In this document: positions 20,514-39,497 of the stretch, piece after piece
Position numbering within the stretch: the first letter of the stretch is position 1
Layout: the number at the start of each line of letters is the position of its first letter
Notes under the pieces: model-generated
The model's input: the letters and a program-made list of their open reading frames with translations, nothing else
What the model was told of the DNA's origin: nothing
Databases searched by the model: none
Origin: Leeia aquatica
GTDB taxonomy: Bacteria > Pseudomonadota > Gammaproteobacteria > Burkholderiales > Leeiaceae
NCBI RefSeq assembly: GCF_012641365.1
Contig: NZ_JABAIM010000001.1
Span: 1,302,001-1,366,000 of the forward strand
Direction of reading: 5' to 3'
Length of the DNA: 64,000 nt
Position numbers and translations under genes: made by a program

Positions 20514-21587
20514 TCAGGACTCCGACGTTTGCTGGCGCTCAAGGGTGCGTGGGTTCAGCTCGGCCCACTGCGCCAGATCCAGCTCGGCGCCATGCGGGCG
20601 CAAGTGGGAGAGGAACTGGCGGCTGGCGTGCTCCCAGCCGAACTGCTCAGCATGCTGGCGTGGCAGGCGACGGTCGATCTCCAGCGCCTGCAGGCATGCC
20701 GTCTTCAGGTCTTCGTGCATCACGCCGGCAGGCGAATCGCCGATCACATCCAGTGGCCCGGTGACCGGGTAGGCGGCGACCGGGCAGCCACAGGCCATGG
20801 CTTCGAGCATCACCAGCCCAAAGGTATCGGTCTTGCTGGGGAACACGAAGACCGATGCGCTGCGGTAGACCTCGGCCAATTGTTGCGAATCCAGCACGCC
20901 CAGCCAGTTAACGCTAGGAAAACGTCGCGCCAGCTGCTCACGCTGGGGGCCCACCCCAGCCACCCACTTGCTGCCGGGCAAGTCCAGCTCCAGAAACGCG
21001 GCCAAGTTCTTTTCCACCGCCACTCGCCCCACGTAGAGGAAGACCGGGGGTTCGGTGGCCAGCGCGTCTGCACGCCCCTCCGGGTGAAAGGTATTCAGGT
21101 CCACCCCGTGCGACCAGGAGGCCACATTGTTGAAGCCGCGTGCCTCCAGATCGCGCCGCACCACTGGCGTCGGCACCATCACCGCCTCGGCAGCACCGTG
21201 GAAACGCCGCAGCCAGGCATAGCTCACCGACAGCGGTAAACCGGTGCGCAACTGCACATACTCAGGGAAGCGCGAGTGATAGGCAGTCGTGAACGGAAAG
21301 CCATTGTTGAGGCACCAGCGCCGTGCCGCCATGCCAAGCGGGCCTTCGGTGGCGATATGAATCGCATCCGGGTTGTACTCGACTATCCGGCGGCTGACCT
21401 TGCGATAGGGGAACAGCGACAGGCGGATGTCCGGATAGGTGGGCATCGGCATGGTGCGAAAACCTTCCGGGGTCAGAAATTCGACCTGATGGCCCCAGGT
21501 TTGCAAGTCTGCTGCGGTGTATTGCAGCGTACGAACCACACCGTTGACTTGCGGCAGCCAGGCATCAGTCACGATCAGGATGCGCAT
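20514..21587 (-). CDS. agt: Agt-like diacylglycerol glycosyltransferase (GT4 family)
   Basis: A 357-residue GT-B glycosyltransferase. The N-domain starts MRILIVTDAWLPQVNGVVRT, with a catalytic His in ADAVMVPTP-type and DAIHIATEGPLG segments. The C-domain carries the sugar-nucleotide site (VFVFPSKTDTFGLVMLEAMA, E-x7-E). The N-terminus and RTMPMPTYPDIRLSL match Agt, which glycosylates diacylglycerol to make phosphorus-free glycolipids under phosphate limitation. The upstream neighbour, whose stop it overlaps by 13 nt, is the PlcP-like phosphatase that would supply diacylglycerol. A mannosyltransferase of related type is the alternative reading. Confidence 0.83.
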   Translation of the reverse strand: MRILIVTDAWLPQVNGVVRTLQYTAADLQTWGHQVEFLTPEGFRTMPMPTYPDIRLSLFPYRKVSRRIVEYNPDAIHIATEGPLGMAARRWCLNNGFPFTTAYHSRFPEYVQLRTGLPLSVSYAWLRRFHGAAEAVMVPTPVVRRDLEARGFNNVASWSHGVDLNTFHPEGRADALATEPPVFLYVGRVAVEKNLAAFLELDLPGSKWVAGVGPQREQLARRFPSVNWLGVLDSQQLAEVYRSASVFVFPSKTDTFGLVMLEAMACGCPVAAYPVTGPLDVIGDSPAGVMHEDLKTACLQALEIDRRLPRQHAEQFGWEHASRQFLSHLRPHGAELDLAQWAELNPRTLERQQTSES

Positions 21588-22438
21588 GCGGTGCTCTCCT
21601 TGCTCTGAAAAGGTAATTCATACTGTTGCGGCAGGAAGGCACCGCCCGGCGTCTGCCAGCTGAGGATGCGCAGTTCGCCATTCTCCAGCTCCACCAGCGC
21701 GGTCAGGCTTTCCACCCAGTCGCCATCGTTGGCGTACAGCACGCCGTTGATGTCGCGCAGTTCCGCCTTGTGGATATGGCCACACACCACACCGTCGAGC
21801 CCGCGACGGCGCGCTTCGGCAGCCACCGCCTCTTCAAACTGGCTGACAAAATTGACGGCCTTCTTGACCTTGTGCTTGAGGTATTGCGACAAAGACCAGT
21901 AGCCCAGCCCCAGCCGCGCGCGCAACAGGTTGAGCCAGCGGTTGAGCTTGAGGGTGAATTCGTAGGCACGGTCGCCGACAAAGGCCAGCCATTTGGCACA
22001 CTGGATGACACCGTCGAACAAATCGCCATGCAGCACCAGCATGCGCCGCCCGTCGGCCAAGGTATGCACCACTTCGTCGGCAATATGGATGTCACCGAAG
22101 GACAAGCCGATGAACTGGCGGATGGCCTCGTCATGGTTGCCGGGAATGAAGGTGACCTGGGTGCCTTTACGCGCCTTGCGTAGCAGCTTCTGCACCACGT
22201 CGTTATGGCTCTGTTTCCAGAACCATTGCCGTCGCAGCGCCCAGCCATCGACGATATCGCCAACCAGAAACAGGTAGTCCGATTCGGTATGCTTGAGGAA
22301 ATCCAGCAGGTAGTCCGCTTGGCATCCGGCGGTACCCAGATGGATATCCGAGATGAAAATGCTGCGGAAACGGTGTCGCTGGCCGGTGTGCTCCGGTTCC
22401 TGATCAAGCCAGTCTGGGCGGGGGGCAGGGGCATTCAC
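21575..22438 (-). CDS. plcP: PlcP-like metallophosphoesterase (phospholipase C of lipid remodelling)
   Basis: A 287-residue calcineurin-type phosphoesterase. Metal motifs are FISDIHLG (D-x-H) near residue 28, LVGDIVDGW (GD) near 59, FIPGNHDEAI (GNHD) near 96, LHGDLFDG and CGHIHKAEL (GHxH) near 228. Databases often label this family UDP-2,3-diacylglucosamine pyrophosphatase (LpxH), but the sequence and the coupled agt gene fit PlcP. PlcP hydrolyses phosphatidyl lipids to diacylglycerol in phosphate-starved proteobacteria. The start is a GTG with AGGGG upstream. A Pho-box candidate lies 34 bp before it. LpxH activity remains possible. Confidence 0.82.
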   Translation of the reverse strand: MNAPAPRPDWLDQEPEHTGQRHRFRSIFISDIHLGTAGCQADYLLDFLKHTESDYLFLVGDIVDGWALRRQWFWKQSHNDVVQKLLRKARKGTQVTFIPGNHDEAIRQFIGLSFGDIHIADEVVHTLADGRRMLVLHGDLFDGVIQCAKWLAFVGDRAYEFTLKLNRWLNLLRARLGLGYWSLSQYLKHKVKKAVNFVSQFEEAVAAEARRRGLDGVVCGHIHKAELRDINGVLYANDGDWVESLTALVELENGELRILSWQTPGGAFLPQQYELPFQSKESTACAS

Positions 22439-22472
22439 GCCCCTGATCTTGCCCGCACCGGGTTACATCACC

Positions 22473-22490
22473 ATGACGCCAACATGACAG
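22473..22490 (-). promoter_or_regulatory. Pho-box candidate upstream of plcP-agt
   Basis: On the minus strand the 18 bases read CTGTCATGTTGGCGTCAT. This is two 7-bp direct repeats (CTGTCAT and GCGTCAT) separated by 4 bp, matching the PhoB half-site CTGTCAT at 12 of 14 positions with canonical 11-bp periodicity. It lies in the only 85-bp gap before plcP. A convincing -10 is not obvious (TGTAAC is closest). PhoB control is inferred from match plus gene function. Confidence 0.6.
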
Positions 22491-22523
22491 CCGTGTGTCA
22501 GGCACTGGCCGGTGGTACAGCCG

Positions 22524-25500
22524 CTAGCCCGCCGTACTCCGCTGCAAATGGGCCAGGATGTGTGGATAGACGTCCTGCGCCGCCTGCTTGCCAAATATGC
22601 AGTCGATATGGCCGTAACCGTCAATCACCGTGCGCTGGTAGAGGCTGCTGCCAAAGGTTTCACACAGCATGTCGTAGGTCAGTGCTGTGCTTTCCGGCAA
22701 GAAGCAGGCATTTTCGCTGCCGTGAATGAAGCTGACCGGCTTGTGGAAATGCTGCAGCACCCTGGCACGTGCCTCGGCTTCTTCCGGCAAGTATACATCC
22801 TCGCCATCGGCAGCCACCACCTTGCCCTCCCGCACCATGCGGGCGAGGTGGGCGATGCTGTCGATGTTGGCAATACCAAACCATTCACCCAGCGTATTGT
22901 GGGTCAACTCATTCAGTTGCGCATGCTCATACAGCAGGGCATACATAAAGCTGATGCGATGGCACACTGCACTATGGCAGCCCTCGTCACGCGGAATGGC
23001 CGGGTTCAGTGTCAAGGCCATGTCATACAGGCGGCTGAACCAGCCCGGGTCCTTGTCGACAAAGGCATCCAGTGTATCCACCCCGAGCACCTCCAGCGCT
23101 TCCGGCAAGTGCAGGCCTGCCCGCAAGCGGTTGGAGAAGGGCGCTTTCACATGTCCGGCCACCTGTGAGAACAGGGCGGAGCGCACGCCAGGCATGCCTG
23201 CCGCCATCGCCATGAACAGCGTACTGGCCCCAAAGCAGTGGCCGATGACATGAATGCTGTCCTGTCCGGTCAAGGCACACACCTTGGCGACCGCCGCCGG
23301 CCAGTCGCGTCGCGCCACATCATCACCGGTAAAGGGGGTACGACAGGATGGCAGGGCAATGCTGGCGCGGAAATCCAGCAGCCAGACGTCGTAGCCATGC
23401 GCATACAGATATTCCAGCAGGTTGGTGTCGATGGTATCGAGCGAGAAAATGGTGCTGGCGACCCCCAGCCCGTGTCCCAGCAACACCGTACCCTTGTCGC
23501 CTCCCCGGTAGCGGCTCAGCTGCAGGGTGACGCCATCATCGGTCTGTACCGGGTAAAGCTGGGGCAGCGGGACCCGCAGCGCCCGCTTCTTGCGCAAACG
23601 GGTATCGTCCACCTCACTGCTGCCAAAGGGATAATGGGTCAAACCGCCCAGATAGCTGTCCACCAGCTTGCCCGCGAAGAAACGCCCAAAGCGGGCCATG
23701 GCAGACAAGCGCTCGCTGGCGCTGCTGGCATGCAATACCTGCAGGGTTTGCATCTGCTTGAGGAAATCCAGCGGCTGGATATGCAGGATCCCCACCCCCA
23801 GCACCGGCGCTTGCGCGTCCAGCCCTTCGTGCACGCTGACATACAGGGTGGTGGTATCGGCCCACATGTCAAACAGGGGATCATCGCGGATGATTTTCTC
23901 ACCCGAGAAAAACCAGCTGCGCCCATCCGGCGCGTGCAGCTGCATCTGGTAGCGCATATTGCGGGTATCCACCTGCTCGGCATTATCCGTCAGCAGCTGG
24001 AAACGGCCATGGCTGGTGGTCAAGGGCTCCGCACACAGGGCGGGGGCCTGTACGGTACCGATCAGGCCTGCCCGATGCGCGGGCTCATCCAGCAGTTGCG
24101 TCAGGTCATCGCTCTCGATGGTCAAGGTAAAGGACAGCGGCGAAGCTGCGGCCTCACCCTGCAGGTAACCCTGCTGAAAACCGGCGGCATCCGCCTGCTT
24201 CACCGCCGTCGAAAAATAGCCCTTCATGGTTTCCGTAAAGCGGATACCCACCGGCGGCGGCGAAAGCGGTGTGGCCGGATGGGAAGGCAGGCTGACATCC
24301 AGTGTCCAGCCTTGCTGAGTAGCCCACAGCATCAGGCTGCGTTCCGCCAGCGCCGTGATGGTGAACAAGGGGTTCACCCCCAGCGAGGTCGGCATGATGG
24401 CCCCATCCAGTACAAACAGCCCCGGGTGGACGCTGTCACCCTGCTCGCCGGCAAACACCTGCCCCAGATGGTTGACCACCCCTTGCTCTGCCCGCTCCCC
24501 CATGCCACACCCGCCCAGCGGATGTACGGTGATCAGCTCTTTGCCCAGCAACGACGTCCACATCGGGTTCCGCACGAACTCGCCACCCTCGGCAAAACTG
24601 AGGTCACGCAGCACCGCATTATCGCGCTGGAATACCGGCAGCTCACCCACCTGTGGCCACACTACCTGCACTCGGTCTTCCGCATCCAGCGCCAAGTGGC
24701 CTCCCGCGCCATCGTGGCTCATCACCAGATAGGTCTGGGTATGCTGAACCGCACCATGGTAGGCACCCAGAATCACGCTTTCCGTTTCGCGCAGCTGGCG
24801 GCGGGCAGCAGCCAGCATGCCATCATCCGGGCTCTCCGCCAGGGTAGCGTCAGCAGCGGCAAATGCCGCGGGCAACAGGCTGGCCATGGCGCCGGGCAGG
24901 CTACCCTCTTCAATCACGTAGCCCTCCTGCACCTGGCTGCTGCCACGCTGGTCAATCAAGCCGGTAATGCAAGGGCCTACCGGATCCGCCAGATCCGGCG
25001 CACGGGTACCGTCACCGATACCATTGACGCGTTGCTCCAGGTTATAGGCAAACGCCAGCACGTCACCATTACCCGTGAAGTGCTGACCCAGCTGCGCAGA
25101 CAAGGGCAAGCCCTGCTGGCGCGAGCGCAACAGGATCTCGGTCGACCCCAGGCTGCCCGCACCCAGTACCACCTGACTGGCGGTAAGACACAGCAGTTCG
25201 TCACCAAACCGGTCACGCCCAGTATCCAGCAACTGATAGTAGACCTGCCAACGCTGCTGTGCGGCATCCCAAGCCAGATGATGGACCTGCACCTCACAAT
25301 AGATTTCCGCACCGTGGTTGCGGGCGTCCGGCAGGTAGTTCATCAGCGTGGTATTTTTGGCCGATACATTACAGCCGGACACACAATCGCCACAGCCGGT
25401 ACAGGGTTGCTGCATCACGCCCACATGATTGGGGCCATCCACCGTGAAATTGACATTGATCGGTGGTCGCGTACAGCTGGCGGGCAGGCTGTCGGCCATC

Positions 25501-26021
25501 TGCTGCAGCACCTGCAGTTTGGCGGGTGTGGGCCGGTCTGCCGGATAAGGCTGCGGCTTCAGCATGTCGCGTGCACGCTGATACCCTGCCTTGCGGCCTG
25601 ACTCATCCTGCCGCAAGGCGGCAGGCCAGCGAGGATGGTCAAACACGCGGGGGTCCGCTTCCAGCGACACGTTGGCGTTCACCAGCGAAGTGCCGCCCAG
25701 GCCACAGCCCAGAAACACGTGCATGTCGTCATGCAGGCGCAGGTCATACAGTGCCGTTGACCGGCCGCCCGAGAGCCCGCCCTTGCGCCACTGGAACTGC
25801 CCTGCAGCCTCTCCGACTGTATCCGGATACTCGCCGGGTTGCAGCTCTGCGCCCCGCTCCAGCACGCACACGCTCAAGGCACTGCCATCGCTACGGCGCA
25901 TGCGCGCCAGACGCGATGCCGCCACCCCGCCGCCATAGCCGCTACCGACCACCACAGCATCATAATGGGCTTGCAGGCGATCAATGGGCAGTGACAAACG
26001 AATCAGGCCAGATTGCGACAT
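22524..26021 (-). CDS. GMC oxidoreductase / alpha-beta hydrolase fusion protein
   Basis: An 1165-residue two-enzyme fusion. Residues about 18-580 are a cholesterol-oxidase-like GMC flavoenzyme: FAD loop VVVGSGYGGGVAASRLA (23-39), a four-Cys cluster CTGCGDCVSGC (Cys207, 210, 213, 217) and the C-terminal HPLGGCGMG plus GVNPLFTITALAERS. About 600-800 is a beta-rich linker. About 840-1165 is an alpha/beta hydrolase with nucleophile elbow GHCFG (Cys929 instead of Ser, as in PHA synthases) and a late His in DGYGHIDCIFG. It probably oxidises a sterol-like or long alcohol and cleaves or transfers an acyl or thioester group; the substrate is unknown. It follows the DUF6765 gene by 21 nt. Confidence 0.88.
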   Translation of the reverse strand: MSQSGLIRLSLPIDRLQAHYDAVVVGSGYGGGVAASRLARMRRSDGSALSVCVLERGAELQPGEYPDTVGEAAGQFQWRKGGLSGGRSTALYDLRLHDDMHVFLGCGLGGTSLVNANVSLEADPRVFDHPRWPAALRQDESGRKAGYQRARDMLKPQPYPADRPTPAKLQVLQQMADSLPASCTRPPINVNFTVDGPNHVGVMQQPCTGCGDCVSGCNVSAKNTTLMNYLPDARNHGAEIYCEVQVHHLAWDAAQQRWQVYYQLLDTGRDRFGDELLCLTASQVVLGAGSLGSTEILLRSRQQGLPLSAQLGQHFTGNGDVLAFAYNLEQRVNGIGDGTRAPDLADPVGPCITGLIDQRGSSQVQEGYVIEEGSLPGAMASLLPAAFAAADATLAESPDDGMLAAARRQLRETESVILGAYHGAVQHTQTYLVMSHDGAGGHLALDAEDRVQVVWPQVGELPVFQRDNAVLRDLSFAEGGEFVRNPMWTSLLGKELITVHPLGGCGMGERAEQGVVNHLGQVFAGEQGDSVHPGLFVLDGAIMPTSLGVNPLFTITALAERSLMLWATQQGWTLDVSLPSHPATPLSPPPVGIRFTETMKGYFSTAVKQADAAGFQQGYLQGEAAASPLSFTLTIESDDLTQLLDEPAHRAGLIGTVQAPALCAEPLTTSHGRFQLLTDNAEQVDTRNMRYQMQLHAPDGRSWFFSGEKIIRDDPLFDMWADTTTLYVSVHEGLDAQAPVLGVGILHIQPLDFLKQMQTLQVLHASSASERLSAMARFGRFFAGKLVDSYLGGLTHYPFGSSEVDDTRLRKKRALRVPLPQLYPVQTDDGVTLQLSRYRGGDKGTVLLGHGLGVASTIFSLDTIDTNLLEYLYAHGYDVWLLDFRASIALPSCRTPFTGDDVARRDWPAAVAKVCALTGQDSIHVIGHCFGASTLFMAMAAGMPGVRSALFSQVAGHVKAPFSNRLRAGLHLPEALEVLGVDTLDAFVDKDPGWFSRLYDMALTLNPAIPRDEGCHSAVCHRISFMYALLYEHAQLNELTHNTLGEWFGIANIDSIAHLARMVREGKVVAADGEDVYLPEEAEARARVLQHFHKPVSFIHGSENACFLPESTALTYDMLCETFGSSLYQRTVIDGYGHIDCIFGKQAAQDVYPHILAHLQRSTAG

Positions 26022-36904: not shown

Positions 36905-38154
36905 AGCGTAATGCCCTGCTCGGCTTGCGCACCCGGCTTGTTCGGGTCCATATCCAGCCGTTTACGCGCCGTGTCGATCTGAGCCTTGATAAGACGGTTG
37001 TTCTCCGCCATGGTGGCGAGCGCCTGGGTGCGATAGTTGTCCATGGTGTCCATCGCCTTGAAGGTCTGGTCAAACATGGTTTGCAGGGTTTTCACCCCCA
37101 GCGCCGGGTCCTGGGCAAAGCGGGTGGTCATGTTGACGTGCTCGTTCAGGGCCACCCCGGTATGCACGATCAAGTCTTCAATGGTCTTCTGGGTAGCCTG
37201 CACCATCTCCATGGTCTTCTGCTGGCGATCGGTCGCACGCGCCAGCGTCACCGCTACGGTGAGTGCGGCACGGCCAATGGTCGCCATGCGGTCGCAAGCA
37301 TTCACCACCTCACGCCCGGTCTTCTTCAGCTCACCCAATACCGCGTAGGCATTGATGGACAGCGCTTGCGAGGTTTGCACATCCGCCAGGTTCTGGCGGA
37401 TATAGAACAGCACTTCCTGCTCCAGCACCTTGGCGCGGTCGGCGTCATTCGGTTTGATACGGTCGATCTCGGCGCTCATCCGCTCGTCCAGCGAGCGGAT
37501 GAAGAAAGCCACCCCTTCCAGCTTTTCCAGCGCCGCCCACATTTGCTGGCGCGCCACATCCAGCTCGGCAATGTCTCCCCGGATGGCATCCTTGGCCTCC
37601 AGCAACTGCTCGGTCAACTTGGTGATCTGCTCACCTGCCCCCTGATAACGGCGCAGATAGGCATTCAGCTTCTTAGCAAACGGAATCGGGATGCCGAGGA
37701 AACGGGTCGGGGCGAACAGGTCACCCTGGCGAGCCGGGTTCAGGTCATCAAACAAGCCGCGCAGCTCCAGCAGCGCCTTGGAGGCAGGGTCATCTTCCAG
37801 ACCGATCAGGTTACGCTCGGTGAAACTGTTGCTCAGCGTGGTGGCAGTTTCGATCTCCTTGCGCCCGACCGAGAATGCCTTGTCCAGCTGGCTCTGGAAT
37901 TCCGGGGTTTTCGGGTCGCCACTCAGCAGCGCCTGCATGAAGCCATCCAGCTGCTCCTTGATGCGCGCCTGCATCTCGTCCGGCAGCTTCACGGCACCCG
38001 GTGTCTGCTCCGGCTTGACCGGCTGGATCACTTCTGGCGGCTCCAGCTGCAAGGTGGGCAGGTTGAATTCCGGAATGGCCTGGATAACGGGCGCGGCAGC
38101 GGTCTGGGTCTCAACAGTCACGGGGGTGATCCTTTCCTGGTCAGCACTACTCAT
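36901..38154 (-). CDS. telA: TelA-family toxic anion resistance protein
   Basis: A 417-residue cytosolic, almost entirely helical protein of the TelA/KlaA (YaaN) family, linked to tellurite and other stress resistance. Family segments include LEQEVLFYIRQNLADVQTSQ, VNACDRMATIGRAALTVAVTLARA and ALGVKTLQTMFDQTFKAMDTMDN. The Pro-rich N-terminus (about 1-50) is probably flexible. The biochemical activity of TelA is unknown. It overlaps both neighbours by 4 nt, so the four genes are translationally coupled. Its two exported neighbours imply a link across the membrane, perhaps through the XpaC-like protein. Confidence 0.9.
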   Translation of the reverse strand: MSSADQERITPVTVETQTAAAPVIQAIPEFNLPTLQLEPPEVIQPVKPEQTPGAVKLPDEMQARIKEQLDGFMQALLSGDPKTPEFQSQLDKAFSVGRKEIETATTLSNSFTERNLIGLEDDPASKALLELRGLFDDLNPARQGDLFAPTRFLGIPIPFAKKLNAYLRRYQGAGEQITKLTEQLLEAKDAIRGDIAELDVARQQMWAALEKLEGVAFFIRSLDERMSAEIDRIKPNDADRAKVLEQEVLFYIRQNLADVQTSQALSINAYAVLGELKKTGREVVNACDRMATIGRAALTVAVTLARATDRQQKTMEMVQATQKTIEDLIVHTGVALNEHVNMTTRFAQDPALGVKTLQTMFDQTFKAMDTMDNYRTQALATMAENNRLIKAQIDTARKRLDMDPNKPGAQAEQGITL

Positions 38155-39302
38155 TCAAATCGGGCAACGATAGCGTCCTGCATGGCATCCAGCACGTGGG
38201 TAGCCGGCATGTCGGCCAGTTCAATCAGCTCGGGCGCAGGCAGCTTGATGGATTGCATGGCCGCCTCAAACACCTTGGGGTCGTTGGTGCGGAAACCATA
38301 CTCTGCCGCAATCTTCTGCAGGTCTGGATCGCTGGCCAGCAGCTGGCCCACCCGCTGACCTGCGTTGCTGCGGGACACCCAGATGTGCTTGAGCACCAGG
38401 CTCGGGCGCGGGTAGATCAGTACATGCTTGTCGCGCAGCTTGCCCTGCCGCTTGGCTTCGACAAACTGGGATTCGTAGATCAGCACCAGTGGCGCCTTGC
38501 CCATGCCCTGACCGATGTAGTCTTCAAACGGCCCGGCCAGCGTACCTTCCTGAAAGCCTTGCCGGGTCATCAACGGTGCCAGCTCGTCTGCCAGCTTCAC
38601 TGCCGCCTCGCTATTGGCGGGGACCTCGCCATGATTGCGCACCCAGGCCAGCAGGGCAATGTACAGCATGCCAGTATTGGATTTGCGCAGATCGGGGGTA
38701 TTGACCAGGATGCCCTTGTTGACCGGGAATACGGCATTATTCTGCAGCTGGTTCCAGCGCTTGCCTTCCAGCATCAGCGGCAGGGTCTTGTCCAGCAACA
38801 GATTGGACACATCGTCGCGGGTTTCCAGCAGGCCGTTGGACGACAGCACCGGCAGCAATGGGGACCAGCTGGCCATCACCAGCGGGGTGGAGAATACGGG
38901 CTGCGCCGTCACCCCTGGCTGCCCTTTCAGGCCTTGCTGCACGTCCAGCGCGGCATTGGACCCGGCGGGCCAGATGGCGTCAAAATTACTGAGTTTGGGT
39001 AGATCATCCTTGAAGCTGCCACTCTTGGTCAGCTGCAGGCACAGGTTTTCTTTCTGCAGCCGTGCAATCACCCGCGCATCCTGCAGGTAGGCAAACTTGG
39101 CGGAGCCGGTCAGCACGGAGACTGTATTGCAGTTGGCAGGGACCTGTGCAGTAGTGGCCATGGCACCGGCAGGCACCGAAGCGGGCACCGTCGACGCGTC
39201 ATCGCCAGAACCCGCCGCGCCCCGCGTAGATTTCCAGATCCCGGCTGCTACCGCCAGCAGCAGTGCCAGCGAGAGAATGACCCCGAGTATCTTGCGTCCC
39301 AT
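38151..39302 (-). CDS. Membrane-anchored periplasmic-binding-like protein, first gene of the TelA operon
   Basis: A 383-residue protein with one N-terminal transmembrane helix (MGRKILGVILSLALLLAVAA), an Ala/Ser/Pro linker to about residue 57, then a type-2 periplasmic-binding-like domain. VLTGSAKFAYLQD, LSNFDAIWPAGSNAALD and PLVMASWSPLLPVL parallel the binding domain in the VWA lipoprotein of the same operon, so the two look like relatives. There are no ABC transporter genes, which suggests ligand sensing rather than import. The upstream 195-bp region is divergent with the 39498 gene and must hold the operon promoter. Confidence 0.82.
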   Translation of the reverse strand: MGRKILGVILSLALLLAVAAGIWKSTRGAAGSGDDASTVPASVPAGAMATTAQVPANCNTVSVLTGSAKFAYLQDARVIARLQKENLCLQLTKSGSFKDDLPKLSNFDAIWPAGSNAALDVQQGLKGQPGVTAQPVFSTPLVMASWSPLLPVLSSNGLLETRDDVSNLLLDKTLPLMLEGKRWNQLQNNAVFPVNKGILVNTPDLRKSNTGMLYIALLAWVRNHGEVPANSEAAVKLADELAPLMTRQGFQEGTLAGPFEDYIGQGMGKAPLVLIYESQFVEAKRQGKLRDKHVLIYPRPSLVLKHIWVSRSNAGQRVGQLLASDPDLQKIAAEYGFRTNDPKVFEAAMQSIKLPAPELIELADMPATHVLDAMQDAIVARFE

Positions 39303-39497
39303 GCCGTCCCATCCCTTTCCATGTAGAAGCCATTAGCGCACAAGCCGGTTGCGCAGCCATGACGGCACAACAATAGCAGAAAGACTGACCGCTGCGTGCA
39401 GGCTGAAACATTGCCTGATCAGATGGGGGAGCCCAGCCTTGTTTTCAAGCCGCCGCAACCATAGACTGCAAGCGTGCCCCACTCCTCACGCATCGAT

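Follow-up and report, generated by a model that had tools for sequence, protein, structure and literature searches.

A PhoB-type half-site array precedes a plcP-agt gene pair predicted to remodel membrane lipids in Leeia aquatica

Two overlapping genes on the reverse strand of a 64,000-nucleotide stretch of Leeia aquatica DNA (the window) raise the question of whether they serve lipid A synthesis, as the usual name of the first would imply, or the conversion of phospholipids into glycolipids under phosphate starvation, as an earlier note on this DNA had proposed by reading them as PlcP and Agt behind a Pho box. The features concerned are as follows.

21575..22438, (-) strand: plcP, LpxH-fold metallophosphoesterase, GTG start, 287 aa; predicted intracellular phospholipase C yielding diacylglycerol
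20514..21587, (-) strand: agt, GT4 glycosyltransferase, ATG start, 357 aa; predicted diacylglycerol glycosyltransferase, Agt1 type
21575..21587, (-) strand: plcP/agt coding overlap, 13 bp
22473..22490, (-) strand: Pho box as first reported, CTGTCATGTTGGCGTCAT, 12/14 to CTGTCATNNNNCTGTCAT
22484..22501, (-) strand: second, overlapping Pho box, 12/14; the middle half-site is common to both boxes
22462..22501, (-) strand: PhoB half-site array in 11-bp steps; 5/7, 7/7, 5/7 and a weak 4/7

Both open reading frames and their overlap lie where they had been claimed to lie, as confirmed by the ORF list. The 13-bp overlap suggests, from the sequence, that expression of the two genes is coupled; in relatives an overlap of 4 bp is common and one of 23 bp is also met. 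The host genome comprises 3.56 Mb in 13 contigs (completeness estimate 100%), and the sample of its family consists of three genomes of one genus, the host included, in all of which agt lies directly 3' of plcP. A gap of 85 bp separates plcP from the gene directly 5' of it (22524-26021, (-) strand), a single ORF of 1165 aa in which GMC oxidoreductase domains precede an alpha/beta-hydrolase domain.

The plcP product gave a calcineurin-like phosphoesterase domain as its sole Pfam match (Metallophos, PF00149: 50 bits against a cut-off of 21.5), and its best NCBIfam models were those of LpxH, both below cut-off (TIGR01854: 45.8 against 190.35 bits, PRK05340: 53.4 against 134). LpxH, the UDP-2,3-diacylglucosamine diphosphatase, is encoded separately in the same genome by a protein scoring 227 bits with TIGR01854, with which the window protein shares 25.6% identity over 117 columns. 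Identity to the PlcP proteins of Pseudomonas aeruginosa and Sinorhizobium meliloti was 56.4% and 52.5%, respectively, and the P. aeruginosa protein also scored low with the LpxH model (44.5 bits). The earlier note had proposed a tree of the phosphatase with characterised PlcP and LpxH, and had named grouping with LpxH in a genome devoid of any other lpxH, lpxI or lpxG as one outcome that would speak against it. In the maximum-likelihood tree (40 rows: 24 PlcP loci, 5 named anchors and 11 LpxH, of which the host LpxH has a long branch and odd composition), PlcP and LpxH were split at 100/100 and the window protein fell on the side of the P. aeruginosa and S. meliloti PlcP; since the genome has its own separate LpxH, the test set beforehand does not refute the PlcP assignment.

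The motifs agree with the tree. Among 139 plcP loci collected from relatives (the best 80 named matches plus 59 from other genomes, the host included), 137 could be scored after exclusion of two with misplaced PlcP starts (L094 and L097), and GNHDE was found in 131 of these, as well as in six of six members of the anchor set including the window protein; at the same place, 30 of 31 LpxH have GNRDF. Residues D31, H33, D61, N101, H102, H137, H221 and H223, which we take to be metal ligands, were invariant across 23 sequences. The nearest named protein relative came from Chitinibacter tainanensis (80% identity, the host or very close records possibly being left out), and a PDB sequence search yielded only weak LpxH matches. 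In the AlphaFold model (mean pLDDT 80.9) the closest solved fold was again that of LpxH (Foldseek E 3.4e-11, query TM 0.49; VIA Z 19). As far as the model goes, this is an LpxH-type fold, which is expected of paralogues and does not tell the functions of PlcP and LpxH apart. Taken by sequence, membership of the PlcP family is supported, with phospholipase C as the predicted activity.

The named comparison proteins were drawn from plasmid collection records. In the P. aeruginosa record, plcP is followed directly by a glycosyltransferase gene, with a cyclase gene on the other strand; this pair is presumably PA3219-PA3218, an assignment that also takes the next gene into account. The S. meliloti record, CP090106.1 (L099), is 3.7 Mb long and titled pSymB, although a record of that size fits a chromosome. 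The P. aeruginosa pair was taken as plcP-agt1 by species and by the gene order in excerpts of PMC8528852, and both anchors were taken as characterised PlcP from species, gene order and the match between their mutual identity here (44.9%) and the 46% given in the same excerpts.

The agt product has the Pfam domains Glyco_transf_4 and Glycos_transf_1, adjoins plcP and shares 50.4% identity with P. aeruginosa Agt1, which supports its earlier naming as Agt; a PDB sequence search gave other GT4-type enzymes. Identity to the probable Agt2, a gene beside plcR in another P. aeruginosa record, was 32.0%. P. aeruginosa has Agt2 as a second glycosyltransferase (excerpts of PMC8528852), whereas the host genome has no close second copy, its only other Agt-like match being weak and partial (34%, 32.7 bits). 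Otherwise, plcP-agt1 of P. aeruginosa (PA3219-PA3218; PMC8528852) resembles the window pair in gene order, overlap and family, and phased Pho half-sites lie upstream of its plcP too (20/28 over four units). The type 2 plcP-agt of marine Pelagibacter HTCC7211 and Erythrobacter NAP1 likewise has plcP followed by agt and putative Pho boxes (excerpts of PMC4796936), but its hosts are Alphaproteobacteria, whereas the window comes from what is probably a betaproteobacterial lineage of GTDB Burkholderiales near Chitinibacter and the Chitinibacteraceae. S. meliloti PlcP falls in the same clade as the window protein, but in its record an MFS gene, instead of agt, comes after plcP. PlcP-Agt with Pho boxes being already known in marine bacteria and P. 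aeruginosa (PMC4796936 and PMC8528852, both in excerpt), the window pair is convincingly a further example of a known system.

As to regulation, the earlier report of one Pho box holds for the 12/14 match at 22473-22490 but not for its being single: the site is an array of three to four half-sites, which reads CTGACAC-CTGTCAT-GCGTCAT(-ATGTAAC) from 22501 down to 22462 in exact 11-bp steps. The weak fourth half-site, ATGTAAC, may instead belong to a -10 element. A lone 12/14 box would be weak evidence, because single boxes with up to three mismatches were observed five times in the window against 4.54 expected. The array ranks first in the window on both strands, over three units (17/21, 127,944 positions) as well as over four (21/28, 127,922 positions). 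When the 85-bp gap, for which the earlier note had suggested a PhoB weight matrix, was scored by half-sites, the three- or four-unit score was matched in none of 20,000 dinucleotide shuffles, and the two-unit score was reached in 9 of 20,000. The sister genomes of the genus scored 22/28 and 21/28 over four units (0/5000 mononucleotide shuffles each) with differing sequences and the phased pattern kept, so the array is present in all three genomes of the genus. PhoB is encoded in the host genome (369 bits against a cut-off of 296), and a Pho box with one mismatch precedes its ORF. A genome-wide search for the Pho-box pattern found 249 sites against 149 with a reversed control pattern. The best PstS match in the host (38 bits against a family cut-off of 205) and the OlsB-like gene have boxes of just 10/14, and the local Pho consensus is therefore poorly defined. 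Given the PhoB gene of the host and the significant Pho-box match 5' of plcP, the pair is a predicted member of the Pho regulon. Other Pho promoters are known to have several Pho boxes and 11-nt direct repeats (excerpts of PMC4415409), so the phased array implies no new mechanism.

Two other sites in the window resemble Pho sequences. At 2430-2447 on the (+) strand there is a 13/14 box that overlaps by two bases the start of a DMT/EamA-type transporter ORF beginning at 2446; this ORF is a possible further Pho regulon member if its true start lies downstream. On the (-) strand, a phased array of 18/28 at 39359-39398 (15/21 from 39387), upstream of ORF 38151-39302, is the second-best four-unit locus.

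Of 79 non-redundant loci in relatives, 36 carry a box of at least 10/14 within the 150 bp 5' of plcP. Mononucleotide shuffles reached this in 49 of 1580 cases, and none of 31 LpxH promoters did. Extra half-sites around those plcP boxes peaked at offsets +22, -11 and -22, exactly in phase, and these offsets did not come out on top in shuffles. The other 43 of the 79 non-redundant loci have no box of at least 10/14 directly upstream of plcP. An OlsB-like gene lies 5' of plcP on the same strand in 17/139 loci (within 150 bp in 16 of these), which accounts for only part of the box-less loci, and boxes of at least 11/14 precede such OlsB-like genes in 4/17 loci against 3/850 shuffles. The best box upstream of plcP is 10/14 in S. 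meliloti, 9/14 in Thiodictyon and 8/14 in Roseomonas. The arrays are not tied to agt, the mean three-unit score being 13.0 without and 12.3 with an adjacent agt.

In the order sample, a PlcP homologue was found at E 1e-40 in 196 of 399 genomes and LpxH at E 1e-20 in 377 (357 above the family cut-off). When the two lists were read together, 189 of the 196 PlcP genomes had both, and the two proteins occur independently of each other; a PlcP homologue was also found in 103 of the 369 genomes of the class sample. The seven PlcP genomes of the order without LpxH at E 1e-20 are G016, G145, G213, G279, G331, G356 and G358, the last by inference, as it appears in neither LpxH list and these leave out two genomes. 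PlcP as a substitute for LpxH was considered and dropped: five of the seven belong to family f15, and because six other genomes of that family without LpxH (G063, G106, G182, G243, G273 and G302) are also without a PlcP match, such a replacement is unsupported. LpxH at E 1e-20 is missing from at least ten f15 genomes (G016, G063, G106, G145, G182 and G213 among them), with G358 in addition by inference, and this family perhaps uses another lipid A hydrolase. Two PlcP homologues per genome were seen in G015 and G016.

Around plcP, agt was adjacent in 92/138 loci by a tblastn-based count from which L117 was excluded for its short upstream sequence, or in 94 when L094 and L097 are added, which had been scored as having no adjacent agt from their misplaced PlcP starts, although in both the PlcP frame is unbroken, with agt after it. 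An ORF-based count was lower (80/139), and in the order sample alone agt was adjacent in 20 of the best 30 loci. In the related family f21, agt was absent within the 1.5 kb examined in all eight sampled loci. Other neighbours were ppk1 (32/139 loci, always on the same strand), a histidine phosphatase (24/139, on the same strand in 22), an OlsB-like acyltransferase (20/139, upstream in 17) and a DgkA-like cluster (13/139; eight members of DgkA size, 130-217 aa, and one member Pfam-confirmed). These families were checked by Pfam in one or two representatives each, and the representative OlsB-like neighbour reached 157 bits with the NCBIfam OlsB models, below the cut-off of 350. Since the loci are the best 80 named matches plus 59 others, the counts are no fair census. 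One neighbour cluster, seen at 56 loci and almost always on the opposite strand, was set aside because its ORFs are probably spurious. In the plasmid of Mitsuaria sp. 7 (L101), plcP with a 12/14 Pho box before it is followed by ppk1 and an opposite-strand Ppx/GppA-type gene, with no agt between. A Rhodocyclaceae MAG (L116) and a 'Porticoccus' MAG (L117) showed identical match and neighbour spacing, and one of the two labels may reflect contamination or misbinning.

From these data we hold with high confidence that plcP and agt form a two-gene unit under PhoB control that serves to remodel membrane lipids, in which the reactions, the sugar and the induction are predicted by analogy with characterised relatives; the genes, their family membership, the separate LpxH, the PhoB gene and the conserved PhoB-type array are its direct basis. 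When phosphate is scarce, phosphorylated PhoB would bind the phased half-sites 5' of plcP and turn both genes on. PlcP, as an intracellular metallophosphoesterase, would then remove the phosphate head group of phospholipids to leave diacylglycerol, which Agt would glycosylate with a UDP-sugar as donor; the sugar is most likely glucose and the product then monoglucosyl-diacylglycerol (MGDG). The net effect would be release of phosphate with the membrane preserved.

Three other explanations have to be weighed against this one. That LpxH models and the LpxH fold are the best matches of the phosphoesterase, and that public names read LpxH, could mean that it is a second LpxH for lipid A synthesis, beside a glycosyltransferase using LPS or an unrelated acceptor. 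We rejected this as scarcely credible: the window protein scores 46 bits where the true LpxH of the same genome scores 227 and the cut-off is 190.35, P. aeruginosa PlcP is equally low, clade and motif differ from those of LpxH, and a Pho array stands 5' of plcP whereas none of the LpxH promoters had even a 10/14 box. A chance match upstream of a plcP-agt pair free of phosphate regulation would suit the first-reported box, which taken alone is near the window background; set against the phased array, unmatched in shuffles and kept throughout the genus, it is very improbable. Slightly less remote, and still improbable, is that PlcP chiefly feeds diacylglycerol to another phosphorus-free lipid, or phosphate to polyphosphate, with Agt a minor partner. 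The ppk1, OlsB-like and DgkA-like neighbours of plcP in relatives, in a few cases without agt, and the sampled f21 loci without adjacent agt speak for this possibility, but agt is retained directly downstream in every genome of the genus.

Within the PlcP-Agt reading, the sugar is less certain. Agt of Agrobacterium tumefaciens and that of Pelagibacter HTCC7211 both make MGDG and glucuronosyl-diacylglycerol (GADG) (excerpts of PMC4796936), and deletion of plcP-agt in the methanotroph OB3b led to loss of GADG with MGDG kept (excerpts of PMC9239053), which leaves the sugar of the window Agt uncertain. It is thus possible, if on balance doubtful, that the main product here is GADG or that several sugars are in use. 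On the other hand, P. aeruginosa Agt1 alone in E. coli made MGDG and, in the excerpted text of PMC8528852, no GADG; the window Agt is much closer to this enzyme than to the probable Agt2, and the rest of the genome offers just the one weak partial match. By similarity, then, MGDG is our best guess for the product, with glucose as the most likely sugar.

At L123, L129, L137, L148, L151, L159, L176, L182 and other loci in relatives, an OlsB-like gene lies 5' of plcP and ppk1 3' of it, several with a histidine phosphatase 3' and some with phased Pho half-sites in front of the OlsB-like gene. The host genome itself has an OlsB-like gene (L218, C1:1693218-1693523; Acetyltransf_5, 125 bits) and may thus make ornithine lipid as a second lipid free of phosphorus. 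Excerpts of PMC5082522 describe PlcP, OlsA and OlsB of Pseudomonas putida BIRD-1 as PHO-dependent, and the neighbour and PHO data fit phosphorus-sparing lipid remodelling. Searches of an open-access library returned nothing on glycolipid and phosphate starvation in Chitinibacter, nothing on lipid remodelling and phospholipase C in Comamonadaceae, and, for polyphosphate kinase together with plcP and ornithine lipid, only papers that have none of these terms in title or abstract. We put forward tentatively, at a little under an even chance for the two parts jointly, that in Gammaproteobacteria as GTDB defines them, betaproteobacterial lineages included, plcP promoters commonly carry at least four phased half-sites and that some Burkholderiales have one Pho-controlled island of olsB-like gene, plcP-agt, ppk1 and histidine phosphatase, with the OlsB-like gene upstream and the last two downstream. 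If true, ornithine-lipid and glycolipid synthesis would be switched together with polyphosphate metabolism, and the window pair would be a compact form of the module. Of all that was found, the extended arrays and the olsB-plcP-agt-ppk1 islands in relatives most deserve to be followed up.

The earlier expectation that the pair is usually annotated as LpxH plus a generic glycosyltransferase was borne out in the plasmid collection, where the PlcP place is named UDP-2,3-diacylglucosamine diphosphatase in 24 of 32 records with a homologue, the other 8 showing no feature (the gene table being incomplete), and the partner is a 'glycosyltransferase family 1 protein' wherever the records name it. Glycolipids of the plcP-agt type are reported to confer polymyxin B resistance on P. 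aeruginosa (excerpts of PMC9804370). In the literature cited here, the phosphate-sparing membrane switch has so far been described for alphaproteobacteria, flavobacteria and Pseudomonas; with a homologue in about half of the order genomes under the standard name of a lipid A enzyme, it may reach far. Under a new family name, many genome annotations would be corrected and bacteria able to alter their membrane under phosphate stress could be recognised.
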